IMG/VR virus record: IMGVR_UViG_3300042868_009582
Coordinates: 1 to 33,577 of that record
Source: a virus
Reading direction: 5' to 3' (one strand)
Length of the DNA: 33,577 nucleotides
Below the pieces are notes generated by a model that saw only the letters and a program-made list of their open reading frames with translations, searched no databases and was not told the DNA's origin. Below are positions 1 to 33,577 of this stretch, piece after piece; within the stretch, counting starts at the first letter, position 1, and each line of letters begins with the position of its first letter. The position numbers and the translations under genes were made by a program.

Positions 1-127
1 CTACACTCGCACTTCTATCTATTCCGTAACAATCCTTAAAGTCAATTGTACCAGCAGTAGTTACATTTACTGTAATTGTTTGAACACATGGTGCAAATGT
101 TGTAGATGTTGTACTTGTAGTTGATGT
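1..127. repeat. Left copy of exact 127-bp terminal direct repeat
   Basis: These bases are identical to 33451-33577. An exact end overlap of 127 bases, a common maximum assembly k-mer, is the usual sign of a circular contig. The reading frame of the gene lying across it stays open when the ends are joined, which supports circularity. A physical terminal repeat is less likely but cannot be excluded. Confidence 0.93.
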
Positions 128-1072
128 TGAAGTAGATGTAGTACTTGTCGTACTTGTAGTAGATGTAGTACTTGTTGTTGATGTAGTTGAAGTTGTAGTT
201 GTTGGCGGTAAACAAGATGGACCATATTCTGTAATAATAAAGTCAGCTGTTCCACTAATAGTTGCAGTATCTATACAACCATCTGTTGAATAATCTAAAG
301 TTTGAACACCTGTACCTACTGAAGTGCTTCTACTAATTCCATAACAATCTAAGAAATCAATAGTTCCACCAGTAGTTACATTTACAGTTATAGTTTGTAC
401 ACAAGGTGCAAATGTTGTAGATGTAGTTGATGTTGAAGTAGAAGTCGTAGACGTAGTACTTGTTGTAGAAGTTGTCGTAGTTGGTGGTAAACAAGCAGGG
501 CCGTATTCTGTAATAATAAAGTCAGCTGTTCCACTAATAGTTGCTGTATCAATACAACCATCGGTAGAGTAATCTATTGTTTGTGTTCCTGTTCCAACTG
601 ATGTGCTTCTATCTATACCATAACAATCTTTGAAATTGATTGCACCAGCTTCTGTTACATTTACTGTAATTGTTTGAACACATGGTGCAAACGTAGTTGA
701 TGTAGTTGATGTACTTGTTGAAGTTGTAGAAGTAGTAGAAGTTGTTGTGCTTGTTGTAGACGTTGTTGTACTTGTCGTAGACGTTGTTGTACTTGTCGTA
801 GACGTTGTAGTCGTAGATGTTGTTGTACTAGGCCCAATATATTCAATTACTTCATTTAATAAACAACCTTCTGATAAGTTAACCAATTTAATACAAGTAC
901 TAGTATCGGGTAATGTTATAATTACAGTTGACCCAATTGAAGGTAAAGATACATTATCACCATCTATTGCAAGAGAATAACTTACACAGTTATCTGAATG
1001 ATATACATCATAGAGTGGTCCAGAGTTATTACCCTTTGCTGTAAGTGTTATTATTCTGTTTATATTTGGCAT
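1..1072 (-). CDS. Modular Thr/Ser-rich tail adhesin, N-terminal part (continues across the contig ends)
   Basis: Start codon is ATG at 1072-1070. The frame runs off base 1 and continues without interruption from 33450 to the stop at 32330, giving 730 residues in the joined circle. Residues 1-81 form a Cys-containing head domain. After it, Thr-Thr-Ser arrays (residues about 81-127, 196-220, 290-325) alternate with near-identical modules of about 70 residues. Each module opens with FAPCVQTITVNVT and carries DCYGI, YSTDGC and ITEYGP. It is the last of three consecutive tail-tip genes, 29 bp after the preceding stop. The likely role is a stalked receptor-binding appendage, but I know no function for the module. 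The repeats make the exact length vulnerable to misassembly. Confidence 0.85.
   Translation of the reverse strand, partial: MPNINRIITLTAKGNNSGPLYDVYHSDNCVSYSLAIDGDNVSLPSIGSTVIITLPDTSTCIKLVNLSEGCLLNEVIEYIGPSTTTSTTTTSTTSTTTSTTSTTTSTTSTTTSTTSTTSTSTSTTSTTFAPCVQTITVNVTEAGAINFKDCYGIDRSTSVGTGTQTIDYSTDGCIDTATISGTADFIITEYGPACLPPTTTTSTTSTTSTTSTSTSTTSTTFAPCVQTITVNVTTGGTIDFLDCYGISRSTSVGTGVQTLDYSTDGCIDTATISGTADFIITEYGPSCLPPTTTTSTTSTTSTTSTTSTTSTTSTSTSTTSTTSTTFAPCVQTITVNVTTAGTIDFKDCYGIDRSASV
98..202 (-). repeat. Thr-Thr-Ser coding array 1 of the modular adhesin
   Basis: Period-9 nucleotide repeat encoding Thr-Thr-Ser units between modules B and C. Ser is written AGT, TCT and TCA and Thr as ACA, ACT and ACG in irregular order, so the peptide pattern is more uniform than the DNA. 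Confidence 0.9.
413..483 (-). repeat. Thr-Thr-Ser coding array 2 of the modular adhesin
   Basis: About 24 residues of Thr/Ser linker between modules A and B, with one Ser-Thr-Ser-Thr phase break in the three-residue period. Confidence 0.88.
692..828 (-). repeat. Thr-Thr-Ser coding array 3 of the modular adhesin
   Basis: About 46 residues of Thr/Ser between the N-terminal head domain and module A. Part of it repeats at the DNA level (ACAACGTCTACGACAAGT, three near-identical copies), suggesting recent local expansion. Confidence 0.88.
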
Positions 1073-1101: not shown

Positions 1102-2850
1102 TTATGAAGGACATCCACTTCCTGATACATTACAAATTGCTCCAGCAGTTGCGGTTACGTCTGATGGATATGAAGTAGAGAAGGTTCCTGATACAAAACA
1201 TCTTGTTACAGTAACTCCAGCATTAATAGGATAAAATGAAAGTGTACAATTTGCACAATCTTTACCACTATAATCTCTACTAACACCCGCACTATTTGAA
1301 ATCGTATAACTTATACAATCTGTTAATGAAGAAGTACATGGAGTTCCTAAATTAGTTAGTGAAGAGGATGCGTATCCACTCACATTTACAATTTGGCCAC
1401 TTTGAACACACAATGTAAGTGAAGAACTTGCTGGTAAGAATTGTTGTCTATACCCACTTGCACCACATGGTACATATGATACTTGTCCACCAAATGAAAG
1501 GCTTGAATTGACAACTTGATATGTTGTGCAACTTGGTGCTGCAGTTGTTGTACTAGTTGTTGATGTAGTACTTGTAGTAGAAGTAGTTGTTGTTGTTATA
1601 CAACTTGCGTTTGGTGCACAACTTCCACTATAAGAACGAGTTGACCATATTGGAAATGCAGCAACCGGATAACAACCTTGTTGCATTACTCTTGGTGTTC
1701 CATCATAATAATCACCATCTACATATACATAACTACCCGAAGAATTTATATATGAATAGTTAAAAAATCCAGCACTACCACCAGATTGACTTCCTGTAAA
1801 TGGATATAAACTACATGTAGAATATAACATAGGTGAACACATACTTGCAGTTTCTGGTACCATCCATGCATTTCCTTGAGCTTGCGGGCCTACTACACTT
1901 CCTCCTCCACCTAATGGAACATATACTGGGTTTCTACCAACAAATCTTCTTTGAACTTGACTACTTATAGTAAAACTAGCACTTTCATTAGTTATACAAT
2001 CCGTATAATCAACTCTACCTCTTAATCCACTTCCACCAATTATTTGTATTCTAAAATCAGTACATGGTGCACATGTTGTAGTCGTTGTTGTTGGTGCACC
2101 TGTCGTTGTTGAAGTAGTTGATGTTGTACTTGTAGTACTAGTAGTTGGTGCTGCAGTTGTACTTGTCGTAGACGTTGTAGACGTAGTTGATGTTGTACTA
2201 GTAGTTGGTGCTGCAGTTGTTGAAGTTGTGCTTGTAGTACTTGTAGTTGAAGTTGTGCTTGTAGTTGAAGTTGTGCTTGTAGTACTTGTAGTTACTATAA
2301 CGGATGAAGTAAATGCAAAGTTACATTGTAATGCAGGTTCTTGTTTAGAGAAAGTATCTGAAATAATAGGGCCTAACAATTGTATATCACACTCGCCTGT
2401 TTTAAGAGAATATTCATTAATTGCTCTTAAATGATAGTAATTACCTCTAAAGTTTACAATATCATTCAATTCCATTTTGAAATAATCAGCTAAAGGTATT
2501 ATTCCTTTTGCATTTAATAATCTTGTATATGGATTGTATAATAAACTTACATATGTTTCATAATACTCAGTATATAAAGATGCAGTTGGTGCAGTTCCAT
2601 ATGCAGTATTCTCATTATTAAAAAGTAATGATTTACTACCAGTTGTAGGAAAACTTCCACTTACAACATTATAATTGTCAAAATAAGGAAACTTAGTTAA
2701 TGGTATTGCAGACCCTGATTGGTTTTGAATATAATATGGTTGACAATCCAATGTATCGTTATAAAATAACAAACGTGGCAAAACAACAGCAGGAGAATAC
2801 TCTGCTGAATTTATATATGCCGGTATGTACATTGGTATCTGTTGACTCAT
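1102..2850 (-). CDS. Tail-tip protein with baseplate-like N-terminus, Thr/Ser stalks and Cys modules
   Basis: 582 residues. Residues 1-186 look like a globular tail protein (segments YNPYTRLLNAKGIIPLADYF and LNDIVNFRGNYYHLRAINEY). Residues about 187-260 are a Thr-Thr-Ser array broken by Ala-Ala-Pro. Residues about 262-415 are a second globular domain with CAPCTDFRIQI and Gly-rich loops. A short Thr/Ser array follows at about 417-437, then two Cys-containing modules to the C-terminus. The start lies 11 bp after the preceding stop. By position and content I infer a structural protein at the tail tip, carrying adhesive modules on flexible and possibly glycosylated linkers. I do not recognise a named family for the whole protein. 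Confidence 0.85.
   Translation of the reverse strand: MSQQIPMYIPAYINSAEYSPAVVLPRLLFYNDTLDCQPYYIQNQSGSAIPLTKFPYFDNYNVVSGSFPTTGSKSLLFNNENTAYGTAPTASLYTEYYETYVSLLYNPYTRLLNAKGIIPLADYFKMELNDIVNFRGNYYHLRAINEYSLKTGECDIQLLGPIISDTFSKQEPALQCNFAFTSSVIVTTSTTSTTSTTSTTSTTSTTSTTSTTAAPTTSTTSTTSTTSTTSTTAAPTTSTTSTTSTTSTTTGAPTTTTTTCAPCTDFRIQIIGGSGLRGRVDYTDCITNESASFTISSQVQRRFVGRNPVYVPLGGGGSVVGPQAQGNAWMVPETASMCSPMLYSTCSLYPFTGSQSGGSAGFFNYSYINSSGSYVYVDGDYYDGTPRVMQQGCYPVAAFPIWSTRSYSGSCAPNASCITTTTTSTTSTTSTTSTTTAAPSCTTYQVVNSSLSFGGQVSYVPCGASGYRQQFLPASSSLTLCVQSGQIVNVSGYASSSLTNLGTPCTSSLTDCISYTISNSAGVSRDYSGKDCANCTLSFYPINAGVTVTRCFVSGTFSTSYPSDVTATAGAICNVSGSGCPS
1540..1599 (-). repeat. Short Thr/Ser array in the 582-residue tail-tip protein
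   Basis: About 20 residues of Thr/Ser starting as a run of Thr and ending Thr-Thr-Ala-Ala-Pro, linking the middle globular domain to the C-terminal Cys modules. Confidence 0.85.
2071..2292 (-). repeat. Long Thr-Thr-Ser array with Ala-Ala-Pro breaks
   Basis: About 74 residues: a Thr-Thr-Ser tract, Ala-Ala-Pro, a second tract, Ala-Ala-Pro, a third tract, Gly-Ala-Pro, then poly-Thr. A DNA unit of roughly 60 bp ending in the Ala-Ala-Pro codons is repeated (near 2140-2220), so segmental duplication has contributed. Confidence 0.88.
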
Positions 2851-2861
2851 ATTATTTTATT

Positions 2862-4784
2862 TTATCCACATGGGCCATTATCTGTTATTGTTGCATTTCC
2901 ACTTGCCGTTCCTGTTTTTGCACAAACTGTTATCTGTGGGTTATTACTATCTAACCATTGTTCTTGATATCCACTATAACAATCTTCCCAACTTACATAC
3001 TCACCAAATAAACTATTGGTAGATATAGTGTAACTATTACAATTACTTGCAGGTGGGTTAGCACCTCCAACACTACCTGAAATACCTGTTCCTGCTATCT
3101 TTAACAACGGAGATGATGCAAATGTTGTTTGCACTTCATATTTTCCTTGTGAAAAATAGTTTGTAGTATCAATATAATACGTTTTACCGAATTCTCTGCC
3201 CTCACCCTTACTAAATTGTTGTGAAACATAATCACCGTCTAATTTGTCACCAAAATTCAATTCATTAACAGCTAAGTTATTAGCAGGTATCACTTCTATA
3301 TTCTCATCTAAATTAATATATTTGTTGAAATCTTTTCTTTCACCTCTAAAATACCAATTATTAAATGTTTCAACTATAAATCTATTTTGCGTAGTTCTAT
3401 CGGGGTATATTACTAAATTAAACTTCTTTTGTATGCCTGTTAAGAAATCAATTAATTTAATGCCTGAAGTTCCTTTAGGCATGTTAAGTGGTATATCCAT
3501 TACTTTACCTGCACCTGCTTGCATTATCTTAGTTATTTCTAAATAAGATTTTAATTCATTGTCAGGGTCAACTAATACACCAAAATTACTTGCATACAAT
3601 CTATTATACTTTATTCCAAACTTATAATTACCAGCTGGTAAAACTTGTGTTAGAAATCCAGTTTGCAATGTAAACTTCTCTTCAGGTGTTGATGTTCCTG
3701 TTGATATCCAATAATTTCTTAGTTCTTCAAAGTATGTATTATAATTTTGTAATGAAGAAGAATATATTGTTGATGTAGTTTGATTTGTTGCAGTTAAGAA
3801 AAACTCAGGTGTTCCAGTTCCTGCAGCAAATGGGTCTAATTTTAGATTTAAGTTTAATGTTCCTTTTATAGAGCTAGTAGTTGCTAATGTATAAACTAAA
3901 TTTGGTGATAATGAATTATATGGATTTTGTTCTATATTATACCACGTAAAATCAGTAACATCTCCAGGTATTAAAGTTCCCATACCACTGCCACTATTTA
4001 CTGACATTTTGAATAGTCCGTATTTTTCTAAATTATACTCATTATATAAAGGATATCTTAATTGATTATTGCAAACCATATATACATCATTCAAAAACCC
4101 TTCATTCATAAAAGAAGATGTATAGGTATATCCAAACTGTTCAAAGCAAGCATCAAATACTTCTTTAACTCTTATCGCAGGTTTATAATCTTGTATTGCT
4201 AAACTACCACTTATATCATCAATTCCGTAAAAGTTATCTTGTGGAGTATATTGTATTCTTTGGCCATATTCTGCCATAGGATAAACAATTGCACCACTAA
4301 ATAAATTACCACTCCAACTACCTGTTATATTTTCTAAAGATGAAGTATGATTGAATTGATTTAATACAGATAAATCAGTTAAGAAGTTAGTTTTTAAGTC
4401 TCTCGCAAATGAAGATAAACTTCCAAAGATTGTTACCTCATACGACTCAATAAATTTATTTGCCTTAACATTTACTTTGTTTAATTGTAAATAACCTTGT
4501 GATACATAAACAGAGTCAAAATCAAAATAAGCTGGAACCTTCTGGTTTGTTGCAAATAAAAATGGATTTACAATACTAATATCATATACATGTTCAAAGA
4601 ATGCATTATTGGTCTTTGAACCAGGTAAAACTATTTGTCTTGTAAAATCTGCAGGCAATACACCAATATCAAATAGACCTGTTATGTTATCTGATACTAA
4701 GTAATCCTCATCTGCAAATAAATCTAATTCTGTTCCATTTGCAATAAGTCTAAAGGTAAATCCTTGTGTGCTTATTATTCCCAT
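2862..4784 (-). CDS. Baseplate/tail-hub-like protein with C-terminal Cys module
   Basis: 640 residues. The N-terminus (MGIISTQGFTFRLIANGTEL) and the first roughly 570 residues lack low-complexity sequence and look like a large phage baseplate or hub protein; this resembles proteins I associate with Bacteroidota siphoviruses at this position. The last 60 residues (about 581-640) are a separate module with SWEDCYSGYQEQWL and ITVCAKTGTASGN, related in layout to modules of the next two genes but joined without a Thr/Ser array. It starts one base after the stop of the 387-residue gene and is followed 11 bp later by the 582-residue gene, so the three are probably co-transcribed. Confidence 0.8.
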   Translation of the reverse strand: MGIISTQGFTFRLIANGTELDLFADEDYLVSDNITGLFDIGVLPADFTRQIVLPGSKTNNAFFEHVYDISIVNPFLFATNQKVPAYFDFDSVYVSQGYLQLNKVNVKANKFIESYEVTIFGSLSSFARDLKTNFLTDLSVLNQFNHTSSLENITGSWSGNLFSGAIVYPMAEYGQRIQYTPQDNFYGIDDISGSLAIQDYKPAIRVKEVFDACFEQFGYTYTSSFMNEGFLNDVYMVCNNQLRYPLYNEYNLEKYGLFKMSVNSGSGMGTLIPGDVTDFTWYNIEQNPYNSLSPNLVYTLATTSSIKGTLNLNLKLDPFAAGTGTPEFFLTATNQTTSTIYSSSLQNYNTYFEELRNYWISTGTSTPEEKFTLQTGFLTQVLPAGNYKFGIKYNRLYASNFGVLVDPDNELKSYLEITKIMQAGAGKVMDIPLNMPKGTSGIKLIDFLTGIQKKFNLVIYPDRTTQNRFIVETFNNWYFRGERKDFNKYINLDENIEVIPANNLAVNELNFGDKLDGDYVSQQFSKGEGREFGKTYYIDTTNYFSQGKYEVQTTFASSPLLKIAGTGISGSVGGANPPASNCNSYTISTNSLFGEYVSWEDCYSGYQEQWLDSNNPQITVCAKTGTASGNATITDNGPCG

Positions 4785-19877: not shown

Positions 19878-19988
19878 TTATTTGTTAGTATATACCTCCC
19901 ATGCAATAGTTAATCCAATGGTGAGGAGATATGCAAGTAGTAGAGGTATTATAGGATACTTACCAAAACTTTCTTTTATCCATTTCAT
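19878..19988 (-). CDS. Very small single-span membrane protein
   Basis: 36 residues starting at an ATG inside the 3' end of the methyltransferase gene in another frame. A basic N-terminus (MKWIKESFGK) is followed by one hydrophobic helix (IIPLLLAYLLTIGLTIAW) and a short polar end. The topology would fit a small lysis-related or membrane-targeted phage protein, but there is no family evidence. The overlap with the methyltransferase and the compact gap to the small terminase argue that it is a real gene. Confidence 0.5.
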   Translation of the reverse strand: MKWIKESFGKYPIIPLLLAYLLTIGLTIAWEVYTNK

Positions 19989-21324
19989 ATTCTATTCTTT
20001 GTTTAGCAATTTCATAATATTCTTTTTCTCTTTCTATTCCAACAAACCACATACCTTCTTGCATTGCTGCTTTGCCAGTTGAACCACTTCCCATAAACGG
20101 GTCTAAGACTATACCATCTTTCGGTGTCACTAAACGAATTAAGTATTTCATTAAGTCAGTTGGTTTAACTGTTGGGTGATTATTCTTTCTTTTGAATACT
20201 TGGTTATCAGTTATAGGGTTATCACAACTACATATTGTTTCAGGACTACCAATAAACTTTTTACCACAACTTGCACATCTTGCATTGAAATCTCTTGTTC
20301 CACCTTTTGTTGCTCTCAATGCTTTTGCATCAGTTTCTATTCCACTATCTCTATCCTTTGCATTTGCCTTAGGACAATAGAAAAATCTACTTGCTCCTCC
20401 TTCATCTCCGTATGTATTATCATCTCTATAATCACTTGCTGCTGGTGTGTATGTATTAGTATGTTCTGTTGGTTTATTATACTTACTACCTCTCTTAGAT
20501 GATTTCTTATTTCCACTTTGTTTGTCTAATATTTGTCCGGCATGTTCATCCATTATTACATTTGCAGGCCATCTACCTCCTTCATGTGGCTCTGCTACAA
20601 TATATTCTTTTCCTTTTGCACTTTCACCATCTTCATATGAATTAAATGTATCGTGATATGCATTGTATCTTCTTATGTCCATTTTATCACCATCTTGCAT
20701 TTGTACTCTTGTCGCATCTATATTCAATCCACCTACTCCGTATTGTAATGTATTCTCTGCAACTGTTCCTTCTATTGGTTTCCTTGCCATTACTATTGGT
20801 TCATGTGCTGGTTTTAATGCAGTTCCCCAACCTTCTCCTACTGAATTACCTTTTGTTATAGTTTTTATTTCATATCCGTCATCGGTCATCTTTTGATTTT
20901 GTTTGCCATACACTGCTGCATTTTTAATAGCATTGTCCAATTTGTATGTTCCCTTTTCCTCTGCTACTACTTGCCTTTGATTGCCTTGCATCTTATCTAT
21001 TGACTTACCTACATTGTGTGATTTAGGAAAGCCACTACCATATATCCACATAATCTGGTCTCTAATATCAAACCCTGCATCTTCAATCCTTACTGCCATT
21101 CTATGATATGTTCTACTACCTGCGAATGCTAATAAGTGTCCGCCTGGTTTTAATACTCTTAAACACTCTTGCCATATTTCTACACTTGGCACATCATAGT
21201 CCCACTTCTTTCCCATAAAGGATAAACCATATGGAGGGTCCGTGACTATACTGTCTATACTATTGTTGTCTAATTCTTTGAGTTTGTCTAAGCAATCTCC
21301 ATTTAATAATCTTAATTCTTTCAT
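19960..21324 (-). CDS. Beta-class DNA methyltransferase with zinc-finger-like insert
   Basis: 454 residues. DPPYG at 29-33 (catalytic motif IV) precedes DPFMGSGSTG at 408-417 (SAM-binding motif I), the order of beta-class N4-cytosine or N6-adenine methyltransferases. RVLKPGGHLLAFAGSRTY follows motif IV. The long middle region is probably the target recognition part. It includes a Cys4 cluster at residues 350, 353, 365 and 367 (CASCGKK and ICSCDN), which looks like a zinc-binding insert. No partner restriction enzyme is nearby, so its role is more likely protection of phage DNA or regulation than a restriction system. The target sequence cannot be predicted here. Confidence 0.88.
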   Translation of the reverse strand: MKELRLLNGDCLDKLKELDNNSIDSIVTDPPYGLSFMGKKWDYDVPSVEIWQECLRVLKPGGHLLAFAGSRTYHRMAVRIEDAGFDIRDQIMWIYGSGFPKSHNVGKSIDKMQGNQRQVVAEEKGTYKLDNAIKNAAVYGKQNQKMTDDGYEIKTITKGNSVGEGWGTALKPAHEPIVMARKPIEGTVAENTLQYGVGGLNIDATRVQMQDGDKMDIRRYNAYHDTFNSYEDGESAKGKEYIVAEPHEGGRWPANVIMDEHAGQILDKQSGNKKSSKRGSKYNKPTEHTNTYTPAASDYRDDNTYGDEGGASRFFYCPKANAKDRDSGIETDAKALRATKGGTRDFNARCASCGKKFIGSPETICSCDNPITDNQVFKRKNNHPTVKPTDLMKYLIRLVTPKDGIVLDPFMGSGSTGKAAMQEGMWFVGIEREKEYYEIAKQRIEYEMDKRKFW

Positions 21325-21935: not shown

Positions 21936-22487
21936 TTATTGAAAAGGGTTGTTTATAACTTTTTCTAAATGTTTGCGCATCCGTTTGATTTGTATGAACA
22001 CAGTGCTTTTACTTATTCCTATCTTATCTGCTAATTCTTGTAGTGTGTCATCTCCCATCCAATATAATTCATATAGTTTAGCTGATGTCCATAACTTTGT
22101 TCTTTGCAATCTTTTCAATTCTTGTAGGACTTCTTCATGTGACTTAACAATACTTTCGTCTAATTCATAATTATATTCTTCAAACGGGTCATCATGCGTT
22201 ATCTCTCCTACATACTTTACTCTATTTAATTTCTTTACTTTGTTTATCCATCTATGTTTTAGGAATGCCATTGCATACATTCTATTGTATGAGTCATGCC
22301 AAAATAGTTTAGGATGACATTTTTTAATTAGATATTCCCACAAATCAGCAACTAAGTCTTCAGACTCTTCTCTGTTCTTTGTGATGTTGTATGAGACCTG
22401 GTGTAACCAGACAGAACTATCTTTATAAAAGTTTTCTAATCTTCTATTACACTCAGTCTGCATACTACTAGTTAACTCATTAGACAT
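21936..22487 (-). CDS. Sigma-70-like / ECF-type transcription factor
   Basis: 183 residues. Residues about 20-90 resemble sigma region 2, with SEDLVADLWEYLIKK and a helix MAFLKHRWINKVKKLNRVKY. After an acidic linker, residues about 148-175 form a region-4-like helix-turn-helix (LQELADKIGISKSTVFIQIK). The spacing and size fit an ECF-like sigma factor or a sigma-derived phage regulator. It could redirect host RNA polymerase to late phage promoters, which would explain late genes lacking TAnnTTTG boxes. It overlaps the preceding gene by eight bases. Confidence 0.65.
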   Translation of the reverse strand: MSNELTSSMQTECNRRLENFYKDSSVWLHQVSYNITKNREESEDLVADLWEYLIKKCHPKLFWHDSYNRMYAMAFLKHRWINKVKKLNRVKYVGEITHDDPFEEYNYELDESIVKSHEEVLQELKRLQRTKLWTSAKLYELYWMGDDTLQELADKIGISKSTVFIQIKRMRKHLEKVINNPFQ

Positions 22488-23186: not shown

Positions 23187-23561
23187 TTAGTATTTGTAAT
23201 TTGGATGATTGGGTGATGCAGCTCCATATAAAACTCCTGCTGCTTTTCCTTTCTGCATGTTTTCATATCCTGTAACCAACTCTAAGTTATCTAAACGATT
23301 ATTCTTTTTGTCATGGTCTATATGATTTATTTGTAATCCTTTTGGTATCATACCATTAAAACATTCGTAAGTAAATCTATGATTAAGATACATAGATATT
23401 CTACCAGCTAACCTTAATGAGTAGTGATTATAACCTCTACCATGATTTACTTTTGCAAGTTCTTTTACTTTACCTGCCTTAAATGAATAAACATTACCTT
23501 CTTTGTCTGACCCGTAATCTGTAAATACTGGGTGTTTTTTTAATTCTAATTGTGTTGCCAT
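23187..23561 (-). CDS. HNH endonuclease
   Basis: 124 residues from the ATG at 23561. A longer in-frame start at 23609 is rejected because it falls on the promoter-like box at 23607-23614, while 23561 has the A-rich leader AACAACAAAAGAA typical of the neighbouring gene. The HNH core is MYLNHRFTYECFNG, then GLQINHIDHDKKNNRLDNLE (residues about 57-94), with NHIDH supplying the metal and catalytic residues and the usual C-terminal LVTGYENMQKGK. Free-standing HNH enzymes in phages are often homing endonucleases; a role in packaging is less likely, as it is far from the terminase. Confidence 0.8.
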   Translation of the reverse strand: MATQLELKKHPVFTDYGSDKEGNVYSFKAGKVKELAKVNHGRGYNHYSLRLAGRISMYLNHRFTYECFNGMIPKGLQINHIDHDKKNNRLDNLELVTGYENMQKGKAAGVLYGAASPNHPNYKY

Positions 23562-23606
23562 TTCTTTTGTTGTTGTTTGTATACTAATATATATCGTTTT
23601 TATTTT

Positions 23607-23614
23607 CAAACGTA
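23607..23614 (-). promoter_or_regulatory. Candidate -7 promoter box (TACGTTTG)
   Basis: Minus-strand TACGTTTG fits TAnnTTTG and lies 20 bp after the stop of the 56-residue gene and 46 bp before the HNH start. No -33 TTTG box at the expected spacing. Confidence 0.45.
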
Positions 23615-26980: not shown

Positions 26981-28786
26981 TTAGCTAAATGTAGCAGCTG
27001 AGTTTGTTCTTCTATCTAAAGCTTGTTGTGAACTCATTTTTTGTGAAACAACATATGCTTCAATTGGTTTTTGTGAAGCACCTATCGTTTGTGCAATTTG
27101 TTCAGTTGTATTTATTCCTTGTCCTGTTTGTATTTGTGGTGTTGGAATTGATGGTACACTACCCATACTTGGTGCAGGGCCTGCAGATGACATACCTTTT
27201 GCACCTGGTATCTTTGGTAATTGAGTTGATAAAATCTTTCTAACATTCATTAAACCTGCAACAATAACAGTTCCTGCTGCAATTGCACCAAATGGAGGTG
27301 GATATGCAGCTAATGCTTTGTTTGCACCGGCGTAAGTATCAATACCTGCCTGTGCAACTGCTAATGCTTTACCTGCAACTGTATTCTCTCCAACTAAAGA
27401 TGCAACTGAACCTAATGCATTTGATATAATTGCTAACTTTGTTTCTTGTGTTGCTCTTTCTATCTGTATTCTACCAGCTTGTGTCTGTTTATCATACGCG
27501 TCTAATTCATCATTAGTTGCTTTATGTGCAACCAATGTTTTTCTATCTAACTCTCTTGCATTTTCAAATACTGCTAAATCATCTTCAAATGTTGCTATAC
27601 CTTGTGCTCTTCTTAATGCGTATTCTGCTTCTATTAAATTAGCTTTACCTGCTCTATCTCTATCTGCTAATTCTAAATCCTTTGCAGCTTTCTCTTCATC
27701 TAATTGTTGTAATCTTTTTGCTAATTCAATTTCAAAATCAAGTAGCTCTTTATTTTTTTGTTCAGCTAATTCTTTTTGTTTTTGGTTGTTTGCAGTAGTA
27801 ATTTCTATAAATCCAGCTTCTGCATTTTCTTTTTCACCTTGTAAAGTTTTCCACTCTGCACTATCTTTTTTATATAATGCTTGTTTTTTATTTAATAAGT
27901 CAATTTGTAAATCATATGACTTCTTTGCAAACTCTTGTTCTACAAATAGTTTTTGTTCTTCACTAAATGCAGATTGCATTGCAATTGCTTTTTCTTTACT
28001 TAACCGACCTTCTTTAAGTTTTTGTTCTGCATCTAATTGTTTAATCAATTCTTGCAAATACTTATCTCTATCGTCTTTTTGTTCTTTAAGATTTTTCTTT
28101 TGAGTTTTGGTCATCTTAGATGCACCCTTCTCAAATCTATCAGTTGCTGCTTCGTAGTTATCACTAAATGATGTTACTGATGATTTAGCATCTTCCCATG
28201 CACCTTTGAAATCTCCTTGGAATAATTTTACAACAGCTGAACCTAATTTACCTAATGATTGGAATACTGCAGTTACTGCTGAATAAACAACTTTGAATGC
28301 CTTTGTTACATACGGCATTACATTAATTGCTAATTCAATAAACCCATCAATAAGTGGTGATAATGCTTCTAAAATACCACCAAAGATTTGTTCCATTGCA
28401 ATTAGTAATGGCTCAAACTTCTTCATACTACCTTCAGTCTGACTAAATGCAGCTACCAATCCACCTAATAAAGAAACAATTAAACCAATACCTGTTGCTT
28501 TTAACGCTGCACCAAATGATTGAGTTGAAACTTTTAATTTATTCAAAGCTGCACCTACCGAACCAATTGGCCCTCCAGCAGCCTCTAATGAGTCAATCCA
28601 ATCTGCAGATGTCTTTTTAGCCGATTTAATTTTATCTTCTAAGTCATCAATTTGATTAAATATTTTTTTGAACTCATCTGACCCTACAGCCGTTTGTTTC
28701 AATTGCTTTTTTAATTCTTTCAAATCTGCAATTGACTCACCCAAGTTAGATTGGACTTCAATGTCTATTTCAACTTTTTCTGCCAT
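26981..28786 (-). CDS. Tail tape measure protein
   Basis: 601 residues. N-terminal helical part (ESIADLKELKKQLKQTAVGS), a hydrophobic segment at about 94-115 (LKATGIGLIVSLLGGLVAAF), further hydrophobic helices at about 125-165, then a long coiled coil at about 225-430 rich in Lys, Glu and Ala, and a Gly/Pro/Ala C-terminus (PKIPGAKGMSSAGPAPSMG). This is the standard build of tape measure proteins. By the usual rule of about 0.15 nm per residue the tail would be near 90 nm. It lies after the glycosyltransferase cassette, not after the chaperone candidate. Confidence 0.85.
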   Translation of the reverse strand: MAEKVEIDIEVQSNLGESIADLKELKKQLKQTAVGSDEFKKIFNQIDDLEDKIKSAKKTSADWIDSLEAAGGPIGSVGAALNKLKVSTQSFGAALKATGIGLIVSLLGGLVAAFSQTEGSMKKFEPLLIAMEQIFGGILEALSPLIDGFIELAINVMPYVTKAFKVVYSAVTAVFQSLGKLGSAVVKLFQGDFKGAWEDAKSSVTSFSDNYEAATDRFEKGASKMTKTQKKNLKEQKDDRDKYLQELIKQLDAEQKLKEGRLSKEKAIAMQSAFSEEQKLFVEQEFAKKSYDLQIDLLNKKQALYKKDSAEWKTLQGEKENAEAGFIEITTANNQKQKELAEQKNKELLDFEIELAKRLQQLDEEKAAKDLELADRDRAGKANLIEAEYALRRAQGIATFEDDLAVFENARELDRKTLVAHKATNDELDAYDKQTQAGRIQIERATQETKLAIISNALGSVASLVGENTVAGKALAVAQAGIDTYAGANKALAAYPPPFGAIAAGTVIVAGLMNVRKILSTQLPKIPGAKGMSSAGPAPSMGSVPSIPTPQIQTGQGINTTEQIAQTIGASQKPIEAYVVSQKMSSQQALDRRTNSAATFS

Positions 28787-28942: not shown

Positions 28943-29746
28943 CTAAAATAGTGGAGAGAAATACTTTTTATAGCATTCTACATCAATGACATTTTCCTGT
29001 GATTTAAGGAACTCATAGTATTTTTCATATACTTTATCTAACTCTAATTTATCTAACGGAATTAAGGGGTCTGTGCAATAATCACCACTACTCTTCTTAT
29101 GGTTTTCAAAGTTATCTGGATTATTTATATCTCCTGATTGTTTATGTCCTGCAACTTCTGCAGGGTCTGACCAATTAAAGCAGTATGATGGAATATATTT
29201 TTGGTTATATTCATCTAATTGCCTTTCATCTCTCAATCTTGTATACCAACTTAAACCTTCATAACCGGTCATATCTTCTCTAAAGCCAATCTCTTTAATT
29301 CTATTCATCTTTACAATTACAGATGCTTCTAAAGTATTTTGACAAAACTCTACTCTATCTCCAGTTGCAAATAAACTTTTCTGTGGTTTCCATGCATCTT
29401 TACCATTTTCAGTAATACCTTCTACAGCTTGTTCAATATGATAAGGTAAATAAATATCGTCATCATCTGCTAACATAAAGTAATCACCAGTTGTATGAGT
29501 TACTGCATCTCTACATATCTCACCTCTGTTTTTATACTTCTCGCCAGTTAAATAGTTTATATCATTATTTACTACAATAATAGTTGGGTCATCAAAACCT
29601 AATTCGTATGGGTATTCCATATCTGTATTGAATATAATCAACTCTTTATTTGGATATGTTTGTGCATGATATTGTGCAACTATTCTTTTCACACAATAAA
29701 ACCTTCTATATGAAGTGCATACAAATGAAACTTTCTTATCTACCAT
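28943..29746 (-). CDS. Family 2-type (GT-A) glycosyltransferase
   Basis: 267 residues. It starts VSFVCTSYRRFYCVKRIVAQ, the nucleotide-sugar binding strand-loop-helix of GT2-type enzymes, then YPNKELIIFNTD, DAVTHTTGDYFMLADDDD and IYLPYHIEQAVEG, with the metal-binding Asp cluster at 94-97. WYTRLRD and a C-terminal domain follow. It transfers a sugar from an activated donor; donor and acceptor cannot be read from sequence. Last of four overlapping genes (seven-base overlap with the preceding one). The likely acceptor, by neighbourhood, is a phage virion protein or host envelope glycan. Confidence 0.8.
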   Translation of the reverse strand: MVDKKVSFVCTSYRRFYCVKRIVAQYHAQTYPNKELIIFNTDMEYPYELGFDDPTIIVVNNDINYLTGEKYKNRGEICRDAVTHTTGDYFMLADDDDIYLPYHIEQAVEGITENGKDAWKPQKSLFATGDRVEFCQNTLEASVIVKMNRIKEIGFREDMTGYEGLSWYTRLRDERQLDEYNQKYIPSYCFNWSDPAEVAGHKQSGDINNPDNFENHKKSSGDYCTDPLIPLDKLELDKVYEKYYEFLKSQENVIDVECYKKYFSPLF

Positions 29747-30726
29747 ATTTTGCCTTTTTTGAATTTCTTTATAAAGTAATCATCACAATCTAATAAGTTG
29801 TGTTTTTCTAAATTTGCTGTAATAATCTCTCTGTGGTCATTTCTTCCTAATCCTTCATCTACTATAAAACTTCTTTCATCACCTTCAAATCTTTTTCTAT
29901 TCCATTTTTCAGCAATTATATCAAGCTTTCTTTCTATAAAATCATATTCATCAATCCATCCTTTATATCCTTCTGTTGATAACATCTCAGTAAACTTATC
30001 ATTTTGGAATGCGGTCACTCTTGTAGAGGATTGATTACTACTGCCTCTCTTAATTGTAGTGATATCATAATCTTCAACTAGGTTATTTAGGTTATTAACC
30101 CAATCCTGTTTTAGATGACATACTCCTGTAAGTTTTAATCCGTATTTGCTTCCCATCATTGTTCCCATCATAGCACTTAAAGACATTAATGTTGCTTCAC
30201 CTCTTTGTTTTGCTAAACGAGGAGAAACGTGTATAATTTCGTAGTTCTTTATGTTTGGGAAGGTAGGTATCCATTTCTTAAATAAAGTCCAATCAGGGTT
30301 ATAATTGTGGTCTTTAATTTGATTGTATGGGTCATCACCTATATGCATATGAACACCATCTTTAGTTTTTAAGTCAGGTGTAGAACAATCTGCAATAACT
30401 AAATTAAATGGTTGTTGTATAATTCTACTATTTACAGCTAATGCAAGTAAACATTGTTCAACTCTATTGCAAGATGTCATTATCAAACAATTCTCATCAA
30501 CATATTTTGTCTGAGGATATTTTAGATTTGCACCTTCGTTAACTTCAAAGAAATGTTCTACTCCGTTATCCTCAATCCAAATATGTAGTTTCTTTTCAAT
30601 ACCTGGTTTAGTATCTGTTAAATAATGATTAGATGCATTCAAAGATAATTTATCCTCTCTTACAAATAATTTATATACTTTGTCTAAAACATCTACACCA
30701 CCCCATTCTGCTTTAGTTATTTTCAT
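29740..30726 (-). CDS. Putative glycosyltransferase-associated protein with N-terminal accessory domain
   Basis: 328 residues. Residues 1-65 form a small separate domain (MKITKAEWGGVDVLDKVYKL, then KPGIEKKLHIWIEDN) resembling short beta-sandwich domains attached to bacterial glycan-related proteins. Residues about 75-328 start TKYVDENCLIMTSCNRVEQC, a GT-A-like opening, and continue with VIADCSTPDLKTKDGVHMHI. No canonical DxD was pinned down. Overlap with the methyltransferase gene (14 bases) and the GT2 gene (7 bases) ties it to the cassette. I infer a sugar transfer or glycan modification role, moderately. Confidence 0.6.
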   Translation of the reverse strand: MKITKAEWGGVDVLDKVYKLFVREDKLSLNASNHYLTDTKPGIEKKLHIWIEDNGVEHFFEVNEGANLKYPQTKYVDENCLIMTSCNRVEQCLLALAVNSRIIQQPFNLVIADCSTPDLKTKDGVHMHIGDDPYNQIKDHNYNPDWTLFKKWIPTFPNIKNYEIIHVSPRLAKQRGEATLMSLSAMMGTMMGSKYGLKLTGVCHLKQDWVNNLNNLVEDYDITTIKRGSSNQSSTRVTAFQNDKFTEMLSTEGYKGWIDEYDFIERKLDIIAEKWNRKRFEGDERSFIVDEGLGRNDHREIITANLEKHNLLDCDDYFIKKFKKGKIW

Positions 30727-31309
30727 TCTTAAACTTTATTAACATGCTACCTCTGAATGTTGGAATATATAATCCCCATTCAATTTTAGTTGTATTGTGT
30801 CTCATAAAATCGTTAGTAGAATTACGAACATCCATATGATAGTCGTAATCATCTAATATTACATAATTGCAATTACCCATTGCCAACTCTAAATCATGTA
30901 TCTTACACTTATATGAGTGACAACCATCAATTGAAATTAAATCGTAAAAACGGGGTAATTGTGTTGCAATTTGAGAGTCTTGTGTAAGTAAATCCCATTT
31001 TGTATCACCATTATAGTATTTTTGGATATGTTTTTTAGTTTCCTCATTATTATTACCATAGGTTTCTAAATCTAATCCTAATGCACTTTCCATCTTTGGA
31101 TTGCCTAATAAAGTTGGTAAAAAAGAGAATCCAAACCTAACACCTATTTCTAAGAATGATTTTGGTTTAATGGTTTTACTAATTGCATAATACCATTCAA
31201 AACAATTACCACTAAAAACGTAATCGTAACTATCGTATTTAGTAAAAAATTCAGATGGGATTATATCGTGAATTGAATCCGGTTTGTTCTTAAATAATTT
31301 TTCTATCAT
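30713..31309 (-). CDS. SAM-dependent methyltransferase of the glycan cassette
   Basis: 198 residues. SFLEIGVRFGFS (residues 52-62) is the SAM-binding motif I loop of class I methyltransferases. YDLISIDGCHSY (122-133) and NYVILDDYDYH (148-158) match the acidic strand positions of the Methyltransf_24-type group, often associated with glycan or small-molecule O-methylation. It overlaps the upstream 323-residue gene by four bases (ATGA) and the downstream gene by 14, so it is co-translated with glycosyltransferases and probably caps or modifies sugars. Confidence 0.75.
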   Translation of the reverse strand: MIEKLFKNKPDSIHDIIPSEFFTKYDSYDYVFSGNCFEWYYAISKTIKPKSFLEIGVRFGFSFLPTLLGNPKMESALGLDLETYGNNNEETKKHIQKYYNGDTKWDLLTQDSQIATQLPRFYDLISIDGCHSYKCKIHDLELAMGNCNYVILDDYDYHMDVRNSTNDFMRHNTTKIEWGLYIPTFRGSMLIKFKNENN

Positions 31310-32277
31310 AACAGTTTTGTATTTTTAGCAGCTTCACATATTGCTAACCAATACTGATATGATGCTGTATTGTTTAATAGAGTAAGTGTTACATCATACG
31401 GATATTTTTCCATATAATCTGCTTTATAAAATAATTGTTGTTTGTTGTGAATTACACCTGCATTGTGAAATATATTTTTTCTATGAAACTCTTCTTCTTG
31501 TGATGTTGCCCAACTAAAATCAAAGTTTTCATGACAGATAGTTTGATTTCCTCTTAACCAACCGTTCCATAATACTGCCCACATATCTGCACACCATATT
31601 TGTAACTCGTGATAGTTTGGATTGGCTTCTTTCTTTATTACATTCATTTCTGTAATTTCTTTGAACAATCTTTCACAATCCTTTTCTACTTTATCCCAAA
31701 AACTAAAATCAATATTCTTCATTAGGTATTGTGCACCGATATTAGCTAATTCATTAAGTTCAACTTCACCTTTAGATATGCCAACAATCTCACACATTTT
31801 ATCTAAGATATCTTGACCTTTAGATTTAATGTAAGTATGTCCTATATACCAACGAGTATCTGAACCATACCACTTTTTATCACCAATCATAATATTAGTA
31901 ATCCATTCAGTAGGTGGCTTTGTAAAAAGAATATCACAATCATGATAAAAGATTGCATCATCTTTTAATTCAGGATACTTTTCCCAATGTTGCTTTAAGA
32001 TGTTAGGACGAATTGAACTAATATAATGTTTAGTTTCTCTTGTATCATCGTAGAAAAAGAAACGTGCTGCATACCCATTAGCTAGTTTTATCCAACTTTC
32101 AGGTATTACACCATCTATTTTCCAACAAACGATATCAACCTGATTTAAGTTAATACCATGTTTTCTGAAGTTAGTTAGTAAAACTTCTACTTGCCATGCG
32201 TAATATTCATTTGCCGGTTGTGCACAAATAAATCGTAATTGTTTTTGTGGAGTATCTCCAATGTAAATTGATGCCAT
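31306..32277 (-). CDS. Putative GT-A glycosyltransferase (DxD type)
   Basis: 323 residues. QLRFICAQPANEYYAWQVEV starts a Rossmann-like nucleotide-sugar domain. The metal-binding DxD is DCD at 113-115 in AIFYHDCDILFTKPP, followed by YGSDTRWYIGHTYIKSKG and later HNAGVIHNKQQLFYKADYME. This layout recalls glycosyltransferases acting on protein hydroxyl groups (for example hydroxyproline arabinosyltransferase-like enzymes), which is notable next to Thr/Ser-rich tail proteins, but the resemblance is by eye. First gene of the cassette, 52 bp after the stop of the modular adhesin; the gap contains TGTTAAATAATAAAGG. Confidence 0.7.
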   Translation of the reverse strand: MASIYIGDTPQKQLRFICAQPANEYYAWQVEVLLTNFRKHGINLNQVDIVCWKIDGVIPESWIKLANGYAARFFFYDDTRETKHYISSIRPNILKQHWEKYPELKDDAIFYHDCDILFTKPPTEWITNIMIGDKKWYGSDTRWYIGHTYIKSKGQDILDKMCEIVGISKGEVELNELANIGAQYLMKNIDFSFWDKVEKDCERLFKEITEMNVIKKEANPNYHELQIWCADMWAVLWNGWLRGNQTICHENFDFSWATSQEEEFHRKNIFHNAGVIHNKQQLFYKADYMEKYPYDVTLTLLNNTASYQYWLAICEAAKNTKLL

Positions 32278-32329: not shown

Positions 32330-33577
32330 TTAACAAGGTGTGCAATCCGCTGATACATTACAAGCTGTTCCACATAAAGTATCTGTTAAAAGTCCAGAGT
32401 TAATTATAACTGAACTTCCTGCTTGTATACAATGTGTTCTACTTGCACCTGCTACTAAGTTCGGTGATTGTTCTGTACCATTACAATTTGTAATTGTGTA
32501 GTTACCAGTCGTTCCACCTTCATTAAGTATTGTCATACATTCACAATCAGGTGCTGCTGTTGTAGTACTTGTTGTTGATGTAGTACTTGTTGTACTTGTT
32601 GTTGATGTAGTACTAGTCGTTGTTGTAGTTGGTCCACAATATGTACAATCAGCTGCTACATTACAAGTATTTCCACATTGAACATCAGTTAATAAGCCTG
32701 AATTGATTTGTGGTGCAGTTCCACCTTTTAAGCAATGTATCCTACTTGCACCAGATGCTAAATTTAGATTTTGTTCTGTTCCGTTACAATTAACTATATC
32801 ATAATTTCCTGTTGTACCACCTTCGTTATAAATTGCCCAACACTCACACGCTAATGTAGTCGTACTTGTAGTTGAAGTAGTACTTGTAGTTGAAGTAGTA
32901 CTTGTTGTACTTGTCGTACTTGTAGTTGAGGTAGTACTTGTTGTTGAAGTAGTACTTGTAGTTGATGTTGTAGAAGTAGTAGTTGAAGTAGTTGCCGGTA
33001 AAGAACAATTAGGTCCGAAACTATCAATTGTAAACATTGCTGTTCCACTCAAAGTATTTCTTTGAACACAGAATAATGATGTTCCAATTACTTCTGGTCC
33101 TATTCCTACATTTTGTATTTGTGATACACCGTAACAATCTAAATAAGTTACATTACCTGCTTCTGTTACCTCAATATTTACATATTCAACACAATCTGCC
33201 GGTGCTTGTGTAGTTGATGTTGTAGAAGTAGTTGAAGTAGTACTTGTCGTACTTGTTGTACTCGTAGTTGTAGATGTACTTGTAGTTGATGTTGTAGACG
33301 TTGTTGATGTAGTACTTGTCGTAGAGGTTGTAGTTGTTGGAGGAACACAAGAAGGACCATATTCTGTTATTACAAAATCAGCTGTTCCACTAATAGTAGC
33401 TGTATCAATACATCCATCTGTTGAGTAATCCAAAGTTTGAACCCCAGTTCCTACACTCGCACTTCTATCTATTCCGTAACAATCCTTAAAGTCAATTGTA
33501 CCAGCAGTAGTTACATTTACTGTAATTGTTTGAACACATGGTGCAAATGTTGTAGATGTTGTACTTGTAGTTGATGT
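32330..33577 (-). CDS. Modular Thr/Ser-rich tail adhesin, C-terminal part
   Basis: Continuation of the gene beginning at 1072; 33577-33451 duplicates 127-1. The unique part adds the end of module C, Thr/Ser linkers at residues about 394-438, 509-556 and 630-655, and three further modules. Module D (DCVEYVNIEVTEAGNVTYLD) is a divergent relative of A-C. Modules E and F are a second pair, sharing LNEGGTTGNYTITNCNGTEQ-like and INSGLLTD segments with several Cys. The protein ends CNVSADCTPC. About 220 of 730 residues are Thr/Ser linker. The first glycosyltransferase gene of the cassette starts 52 bp downstream of this stop. Confidence 0.85.
   Translation of the reverse strand, partial: TSTTSTTSTTFAPCVQTITVNVTTAGTIDFKDCYGIDRSASVGTGVQTLDYSTDGCIDTATISGTADFVITEYGPSCVPPTTTTSTTSTTSTTSTTSTTSTSTTTSTTSTTSTTSTTSTTSTTQAPADCVEYVNIEVTEAGNVTYLDCYGVSQIQNVGIGPEVIGTSLFCVQRNTLSGTAMFTIDSFGPNCSLPATTSTTTSTTSTTSTTSTTSTTSTTSTTSTTSTTSTTSTTSTTSTTTLACECWAIYNEGGTTGNYDIVNCNGTEQNLNLASGASRIHCLKGGTAPQINSGLLTDVQCGNTCNVAADCTYCGPTTTTTSTTSTTSTTSTTSTTSTTTAAPDCECMTILNEGGTTGNYTITNCNGTEQSPNLVAGASRTHCIQAGSSVIINSGLLTDTLCGTACNVSADCTPC
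32557..32630 (-). repeat. Thr-Thr-Ser coding array between modules E and F
   Basis: About 25 residues of Thr-Thr-Ser ending in Thr-Ala-Ala-Pro before the last Cys module. The Ala-Ala-Pro ending recurs in the arrays of the 582-residue gene. Confidence 0.88.
32854..32993 (-). repeat. Thr-Thr-Ser coding array between modules D and E
   Basis: About 47 residues, one of the longest arrays in this protein, almost perfectly periodic at three residues with mixed Ser and Thr codons. Confidence 0.88.
33208..33339 (-). repeat. Thr-Thr-Ser coding array between modules C and D
   Basis: About 44 residues with one Ser-Thr-Ser-Thr phase break, ending Thr-Gln-Ala-Pro before module D. Confidence 0.88.
33451..33577. 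repeat. Right copy of exact 127-bp terminal direct repeat
   Basis: Identical to bases 1-127; should be removed once when the contig is circularised, leaving 33,450 bp. It lies inside module C and the start of an array of the adhesin gene. It differs from the corresponding parts of modules A and B, so the overlap is specific. Confidence 0.93.

Follow-up and report, generated by a model that had tools for sequence, protein, structure and literature searches.

The virus genome analyzed here raises the question of why a phage would encode sugar-transferring enzymes directly behind its own Thr/Ser-rich tail proteins. This DNA, the IMG/VR record IMGVR_UViG_3300042868_009582, was examined over its full length of 33,577 bp (hereafter, the window). 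Nearly all of the recognized genes are on the minus strand, among them those for two tail-tip proteins of 582 and 730 amino acids (aa) that carry long Thr/Ser arrays and, directly following these, a cassette of four genes (28943–32277), the first of which encodes a 323-aa enzyme. A preliminary description of the sequence proposed that the cassette builds and caps O-glycans on the phage's own arrays. Its main proposal, modification of these Thr/Ser arrays by the cassette, is supported by the co-variation of enzyme and tail on homologous acceptors, by repeated joint changes of the two, by a variable slot that they share, and by the blind recovery of an enzyme gene beside an array in a whole-record search. 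Judging from sequence comparison and structural models, we consider it very likely that the cassette is a virion self-glycosylation module in which the 323-aa enzyme would act on the arrays of the same phage.

The Thr/Ser Arrays and the First Cassette Enzyme

The array proteins contain 294 Thr/Ser residues in eight arrays, in agreement with the initial estimate of nearly 300, and these arrays are frequently edged by AAP, FAP or PP, of which the first had been noted before. The 582-aa protein (1102–2850, minus strand) consists of a conserved tail-tip-associated N-terminal domain (residues 1–188), directly followed by two arrays with 77 of the Thr/Ser residues (2095–2298 and 1537–1605) and small beta-rich domains. 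The remaining 217 are in six arrays of the 730-aa protein, which is split in the window because the contig ends fall within one array: the N-terminal part (1–1072, minus strand; arrays 686–835, 407–487 and 92–208) joins the C-terminal part (32330–33577, minus strand; arrays 33203–33343, 32849–32998 and 32552–32635) over a 127-bp end repeat. When rejoined over this repeat, the protein matches the uncut 730-aa copy in locus L002 at every residue. The codons of the arrays are mixed (ACA, ACT, ACG, TCA, TCT and AGT).

The 323-aa protein (GTA; 31306–32277, minus strand) had no match in Pfam, NCBIfam or the PDB in searches at the sequence level, and no significant profile match that would place it in CAZy families GT8 or GT24; among these resources, relatives were obtained by fold comparison alone. 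It is matched by the profile of phrog_4417 (E 1.2e-61; residues 15–315 on positions 2–290 of 293), a family also known as 'prophage pi2 protein 34' that is present in phages of Enterococcus, Lactobacillus, Lactococcus and Staphylococcus, is catalogued as of unknown function and has no link to Thr-rich tails in the literature searched. In an alignment of 41 sequences of the enzyme, D113, D115, G181-A182-Q183, H271-N272-A273-G274 and K285 are invariant. The two Asp residues belong to an HDCDI motif, in keeping with the original assignment as a DxD glycosyltransferase, and the late His...Gly...Lys cluster resembles the metal and substrate site of GT8 enzymes.

The structure prediction suggested in the preliminary description gave a GT-A fold (AlphaFold model with a predicted local distance difference test score, pLDDT, of 95.9). 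Foldseek aligned the model with 186 solved structures at E<=0.001, led by the catalytic domain of UGGT (UDP-glucose:glycoprotein glucosyltransferase, GT24); further matches include WbbM, COLGALT1, LARGE1, the blood-group enzymes (GT6) and glycogenin (GT8), and the best viral structure matches are GT-A enzymes as well. The GT24, GT8 and GT6 enzymes thus share the GT-A fold and the DxD motif with the protein from the window, albeit at a TM-score of about 0.45 and about 12% identity. By its modeled structure, the 323-aa protein is a GT-A glycosyltransferase with an intact metal motif, and its fold neighbors suggest that it is probably retaining and nucleotide-sugar dependent.

Co-variation of Enzyme and Tail on Homologous Virion Proteins

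If enzyme and array cooperate, homologous acceptor proteins are expected to bear a Thr-rich tail (T-tail) exactly when the enzyme is present. This premise was tested on acceptors sampled by core sequence, with tail and enzyme left out and with the query cores taken from enzyme-bearing phages. Among the loci for major tail proteins, 17 combine a T-tail with the adjoining enzyme and 54 have neither; 7 more are tail-less but truncated. For capsid proteins of the type found in Enterococcus phage 4995_1, both features are present in 56 loci and both are missing in 11 (plus 2 truncated ones). The sole two mismatches between tail and enzyme are contigs that stop right after the tail. Given that many of the capsid loci are near-copies, the tail-protein set carries more weight; on the respective tree, T-tail and enzyme change jointly at least about 10 times, and at least 4 times on well-supported branches. 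The phage glycosyltransferase is thereby genetically tied to a virion protein.

The Enzyme Adjoins Thr-Rich Tails in Diverse Phages

In all 16 characterized phages that were examined, the gene that adjoins the enzyme gene, just upstream, encodes a Thr-rich tail. The tail-bearing protein itself varies, being the major capsid protein, the major tail protein, a small protein or a tail-tip adhesin. For example, the enzyme of Enterococcus phage 4995_1 is encoded behind the major capsid protein, which ends in LGTTTTTTKPTTTTTTTQA, and Coetzeevirus R3.3 has, in the capsid position upstream, a protein with the C-terminus TTTTTTKAPTTTTTSSHA. The enzyme gene follows that of a T-tailed major tail protein in Staphylococcus phage SA2, of a small Thr-repeat protein in Harbinvirus and of an array protein in Chryseobacterium phage MA9V-3. 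Ten further phages chosen for diversity all have a T-rich gene upstream of the enzyme, and the 'major structural protein' encoded in this position in lactococcal phage 1706 ends in TTTTTTTTTTHHD. In prophages from 35 genome loci, mostly of Bacillota, the tail ends major tail proteins of TIGR01603 or capsid-position and small proteins.

The strength of this linkage was assessed on one relative of the enzyme per 70%-identity cluster, with a run of 6 or more Thr counted when located at most 700 bp upstream; this measure was used instead of a 20-residue Thr/Ser window, which missed short C-terminal tails. Such a run precedes 35 of 40 enzyme relatives, compared with 40 of 429 other gene starts in the same loci (Fisher p 1.5e-26). 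The five failing clusters comprise two with arrays deeper in the upstream protein, two whose Thr runs lie at other places in the locus, and a fragment. Furthermore, when whole records were searched as a control, a supposedly enzyme-free contig turned out to encode the enzyme at a new place, with an array open reading frame (ORF) ending 43 bp upstream.

It appears likely that these cases represent a so far unrecognized mobile module, a Thr-tail plus its dedicated glycosyltransferase, that unrelated phages of Bacillota and probably also of Bacteroidota have in common. Whichever virion protein gains a Thr-rich tag beside the enzyme, be it a capsid, tail-tube or adhesin protein, could thereby become glycosylated, and ribosomal frameshifting would give some phages longer tags.

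Several features of individual tails can be added. In SA2 and in Arcanobacterium phage TPWB06, a Thr run and Pro at ACTCCCTAA close the major tail protein, with a longer Thr array open in the +1 frame, and the end of the capsid gene of VPE25 has an array open in another frame (L087:7649-7927, L674:2220-2426 and L086:7728-7883). From the reading frames, it looks as if a fraction of the subunits received a T-tail extended by frameshifting. The most divergent enzymes pair with degenerate tags, namely TTTETQTQTQ in LP65 (21% identity) and TTVKPTTVAP in 521B (28%; L678 and L679), as if acceptor and enzyme had changed together. In Enterococcus phage phiFL2B, gp49 (L673:2501-3409) is annotated as 'major tail protein', probably wrongly; it is this enzyme, and the T-tailed protein is gp48. 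Finally, a protein with Thr arrays edged by poly-Pro (L327:7662-9533) also has a GTSMASPQVAG motif like that of subtilases, the enzyme gene being on the contig but not adjacent.

A Variable Slot in the Phage Family of the Window

The order of transcription in the window is the conserved tail protein, the 582-aa and 730-aa array proteins, the 323-aa enzyme, the methyltransferase, the 328-aa protein, the GT2 enzyme and the tape measure protein. The interval between the first and the last of these is bordered on the left by the 640-aa conserved tail protein (2862–4784, minus strand; phrog_38559, E 1.7e-16) and on the right by the 601-aa tape measure protein (26981–28786, minus strand; phrog_3336 tape measure, E 2.6e-8). 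The family was sampled via the prohead protease, i.e., blind to arrays and enzyme, which yielded 44 loci with the full interval. Given that its length ranges from 113 bp to 6.3 kb (L593–L672), the interval is a hypervariable cargo slot.

Neither array nor enzyme is present in 36 of these slots and both are found in 6; one locus (L604) has a short array only and another (L630) the enzyme only. The co-occurrence in related genomes, which the preliminary description had named as a check, is seen in the six shared slots, with L604 and L630 as the two mixed cases. In most enzyme-bearing relatives, T-arrays come after the 188-residue N-terminal domain of the 582-aa protein; in the enzyme-less relatives, with the exception of L604, this domain stops within a few residues or runs into T-free sequence.

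Genes Encoded After the Enzyme

The four cassette ORFs are located exactly where they had been described, in the same direction and with overlaps of 4, 14 and 7 bases. The second gene (30713–31309, minus strand) encodes a 198-aa methyltransferase dependent on S-adenosylmethionine (SAM), recognized as such from the outset and matching PF13578 (Methyltransf_24) over the gathering score (E 2.8e-6). This family recurs in related cassettes, in one copy also as a TylF macrocin O-methyltransferase, and by this relationship the 198-aa protein is likely to be a sugar-capping O-methyltransferase. The fourth gene (28943–29746, minus strand) encodes a 267-aa GT2 glycosyltransferase, again as assigned earlier (PF00535, E 3e-7; structure match to SpsA, E 0.0017).

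The third gene product, of 328 aa (29740–30726, minus strand), had been called a second transferase-like protein, a label that stays tentative: it has no match in Pfam or NCBIfam, and the AlphaFold model reaches a pLDDT of 55 overall, with values of 80–93 in a conserved N-terminal domain (residues ~1–70) and a poorly modeled C-terminal part. There might be a GT2-like start motif around residues 80–116. A search with peptides of the protein itself found a single relative in IMG/VR; a protein of locus L081 is 51% identical to it. The 328-aa protein and 286–291-aa proteins encoded in the same slot (alignment A8) have in common an N-terminal domain of ~75 residues (KATYGGxDCT...GDTxVGxVKYLEI) and differ in their C-terminal parts, i.e., the cassette proteins with this domain are of modular design.

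Among 53 proteins whose genes come after that of the enzyme in a range of loci, the Pfam matches are to GT2 (8), radical SAM with SPASM (6), Gly_transf_sug (5), Methyltransf_24 (4), Caps_synth (3) and GT25 (2), and also to an epimerase as well as FkbM and TylF-like methyltransferase families. The six radical SAM/SPASM proteins come from several loci (alignment A5, L004–L081), hinting at unusual sugar or peptide chemistry. In glycan-building clusters, the first transferase is usually constant, and the transferases and methyltransferases after it vary. Because the constant-first, variable-later layout resembles such clusters, we read the methyltransferase and the GT2 enzyme of the window, by analogy, as the putative capping and extending enzyme, respectively. 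Of the original proposal that the cassette builds and caps O-glycans, the part concerning the first gene is thus tied to the arrays, and the roles of genes 2–4 are suggested by their families and variability.

In the scheme that we propose, the transfer reaction, the sugar, the roles of genes 2–4 and the benefit to the phage are what we infer. The 323-aa enzyme would be a dedicated and conserved first-sugar transferase, soluble and probably metal-dependent, that attaches an O-linked sugar to Thr (and Ser) of the arrays in both upstream tail-tip proteins; the arrays would be its acceptor tag. Genes 2–4 would constitute a variable tailoring set, in which GT2 and possibly the 328-aa protein extend the first sugar and the methyltransferase methylates the glycan. 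The finished stalks could serve as stiff, heavily glycosylated spacers between adhesin domains; besides rigidity, the preliminary description named protease resistance and masking as possible benefits.

Conflicting Observations and Alternative Explanations

Several observations weigh against virion self-glycosylation by the cassette. The enzyme is scarce among arrays: 21 of 161 array-bearing stretches hold it (in 20 of these, ~80 bp or less from the end of the array gene), and a search over the full length of 41 further array records found it in 4. Within the family of the window, L604 has an array and no enzyme, and L630 lacks an array in the slot, though there is one elsewhere in the locus. 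In one large clade, the enzyme is encoded apart from the probable acceptor, and in two members the stored stretch contains no array. Phages of Gram-positive bacteria have the enzyme and none of the other three cassette genes, which are thus dispensable for its action, and the 328-aa protein combines the lack of a family match with the low pLDDT. The preliminary description had said that related phages keeping the arrays while always lacking the cassette would refute it; arrays without the cassette do occur in other phages and in L604, and arrays thus do not require the enzyme. The relationship is asymmetric in that T-arrays without the enzyme are common, whereas the enzyme almost always accompanies a T-rich acceptor. 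Enzyme-less arrays may depend on other transferases or on the host. Of 99 neighbors of such arrays that were scanned for substitute transferases, 5 matched GT2, too few to support a general substitute.

With these points in mind, the 323-aa enzyme could act on the arrays while genes 2–4 are unrelated cargo of the slot, which is itself variable; the Gram-positive phages and prophages that have the enzyme alone fit this possibility, but glycosyltransferase, methyltransferase and epimerase families are frequent among the genes that follow the enzyme, and these genes are tightly packed, overlapping one another; we regard unrelated cargo as unlikely. The frequency of enzyme-less arrays would also be compatible with arrays that are flexible, hypermutable linkers, with the enzyme hitchhiking. 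This is very improbable in view of the repeated joint changes on the tree and of the perfect co-variation on acceptors whose T-tail is short and forms the end of a capsid or tail-tube subunit, a position that calls for no linker.

Two further explanations place the acceptor outside the virion proteins. Modification of host surface glycans, resulting in serotype conversion or superinfection exclusion, with the proximity to tail genes due to chance or expression timing, could account for the matches of GT2 and other cassette families to polysaccharide-biosynthesis enzymes. However, gtr-type systems need membrane-embedded flippase and transferase partners, and no membrane segment was detected in any of the four cassette proteins. 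Nor would this explanation, which we consider extremely improbable, predict that enzyme and T-tail track each other without exception on homologous capsid and tail proteins in complete loci, or that the enzyme gene is located within the head-tail operon, beside a T-tailed gene, in unrelated phages. Phage glycosyltransferases that act on DNA are known (cited in PMC12619734), but glycosylation of phage DNA bases has a next to negligible probability here: the enzyme is linked to T-tails and not to nucleotide metabolism, and PHROG scans of the main window proteins recognized no modified-base synthesis gene.

Comparison with Known Glycosylation Systems

In mycobacteriophages (Che8 and others), glycans reported at the C-termini of capsid and tail-tube subunits have been linked to glycosyltransferases that the phages encode (PMC12619734 and PMC11256854, citing Freeman et al., 2023). 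These C-termini are the same places where the T-tails described here are found. The difference lies in the acceptor, in our case a repetitive Thr/Ser array encoded beside the enzyme and, in the window, located on tail-tip adhesins. None of the 74 phage records that match the enzyme by tblastn is from a mycobacteriophage, and, as judged by these record matches, the mycobacteriophage enzymes do not appear to be closely related to the 323-aa family. Eukaryotic mucin stalks similarly have dense Thr/Ser repeats with Pro edges, to which the O-glycans proposed here would correspond; this is an analogy only, with different enzymes and no secretory pathway.

In the literature searched, the coverage of which was incomplete, neither phrog_4417 nor phage Thr arrays are tied to glycosylation. 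Virion glycosylation by other enzymes is already known in mycobacteriophages, and within the same coverage the pairing of this enzyme family with Thr arrays is new. A widespread phage family of unknown function thus gains a testable one, and cultured phages with the enzyme gene exist, among them lactococcal 1706 (T-tailed protein orf13), L. casei PLE3 and iLp84 (capsid) and E. faecalis phiFL2B (tail protein). Glycosylated virions, so far reported mainly from mycobacteriophages, may be common in phages that infect lactic acid bacteria, enterococci, staphylococci, bacilli or aquatic Bacteroidota. For glycoengineering, a short Thr tag that can be moved together with its transferase would be a useful tool.

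Genome, Host and Other Genes of the Window

A 127-bp direct repeat is present at both ends of the window (1–127 and 33451–33577), and accordingly the genome is probably circularly closed, at 33.45 kb. The length of 127 bp is a common assembly k-mer and the repeat lies inside a repeat array, so that the array copy number at the junction could be collapsed; despite this possibility, the L002 copy gives the same 730-aa protein as the joined ends of the window. The terminase is nearest to those of Bacteroides and Phocaeicola phages (37% identity) and the portal to those of Nonlabens phages (34% identity), relatives that suggest that the host is probably a member of Bacteroidota. Elsewhere, the window encodes a DNA methyltransferase (19960–21324), a sigma-factor-like protein (21936–22487) and an HNH endonuclease (23187–23609).

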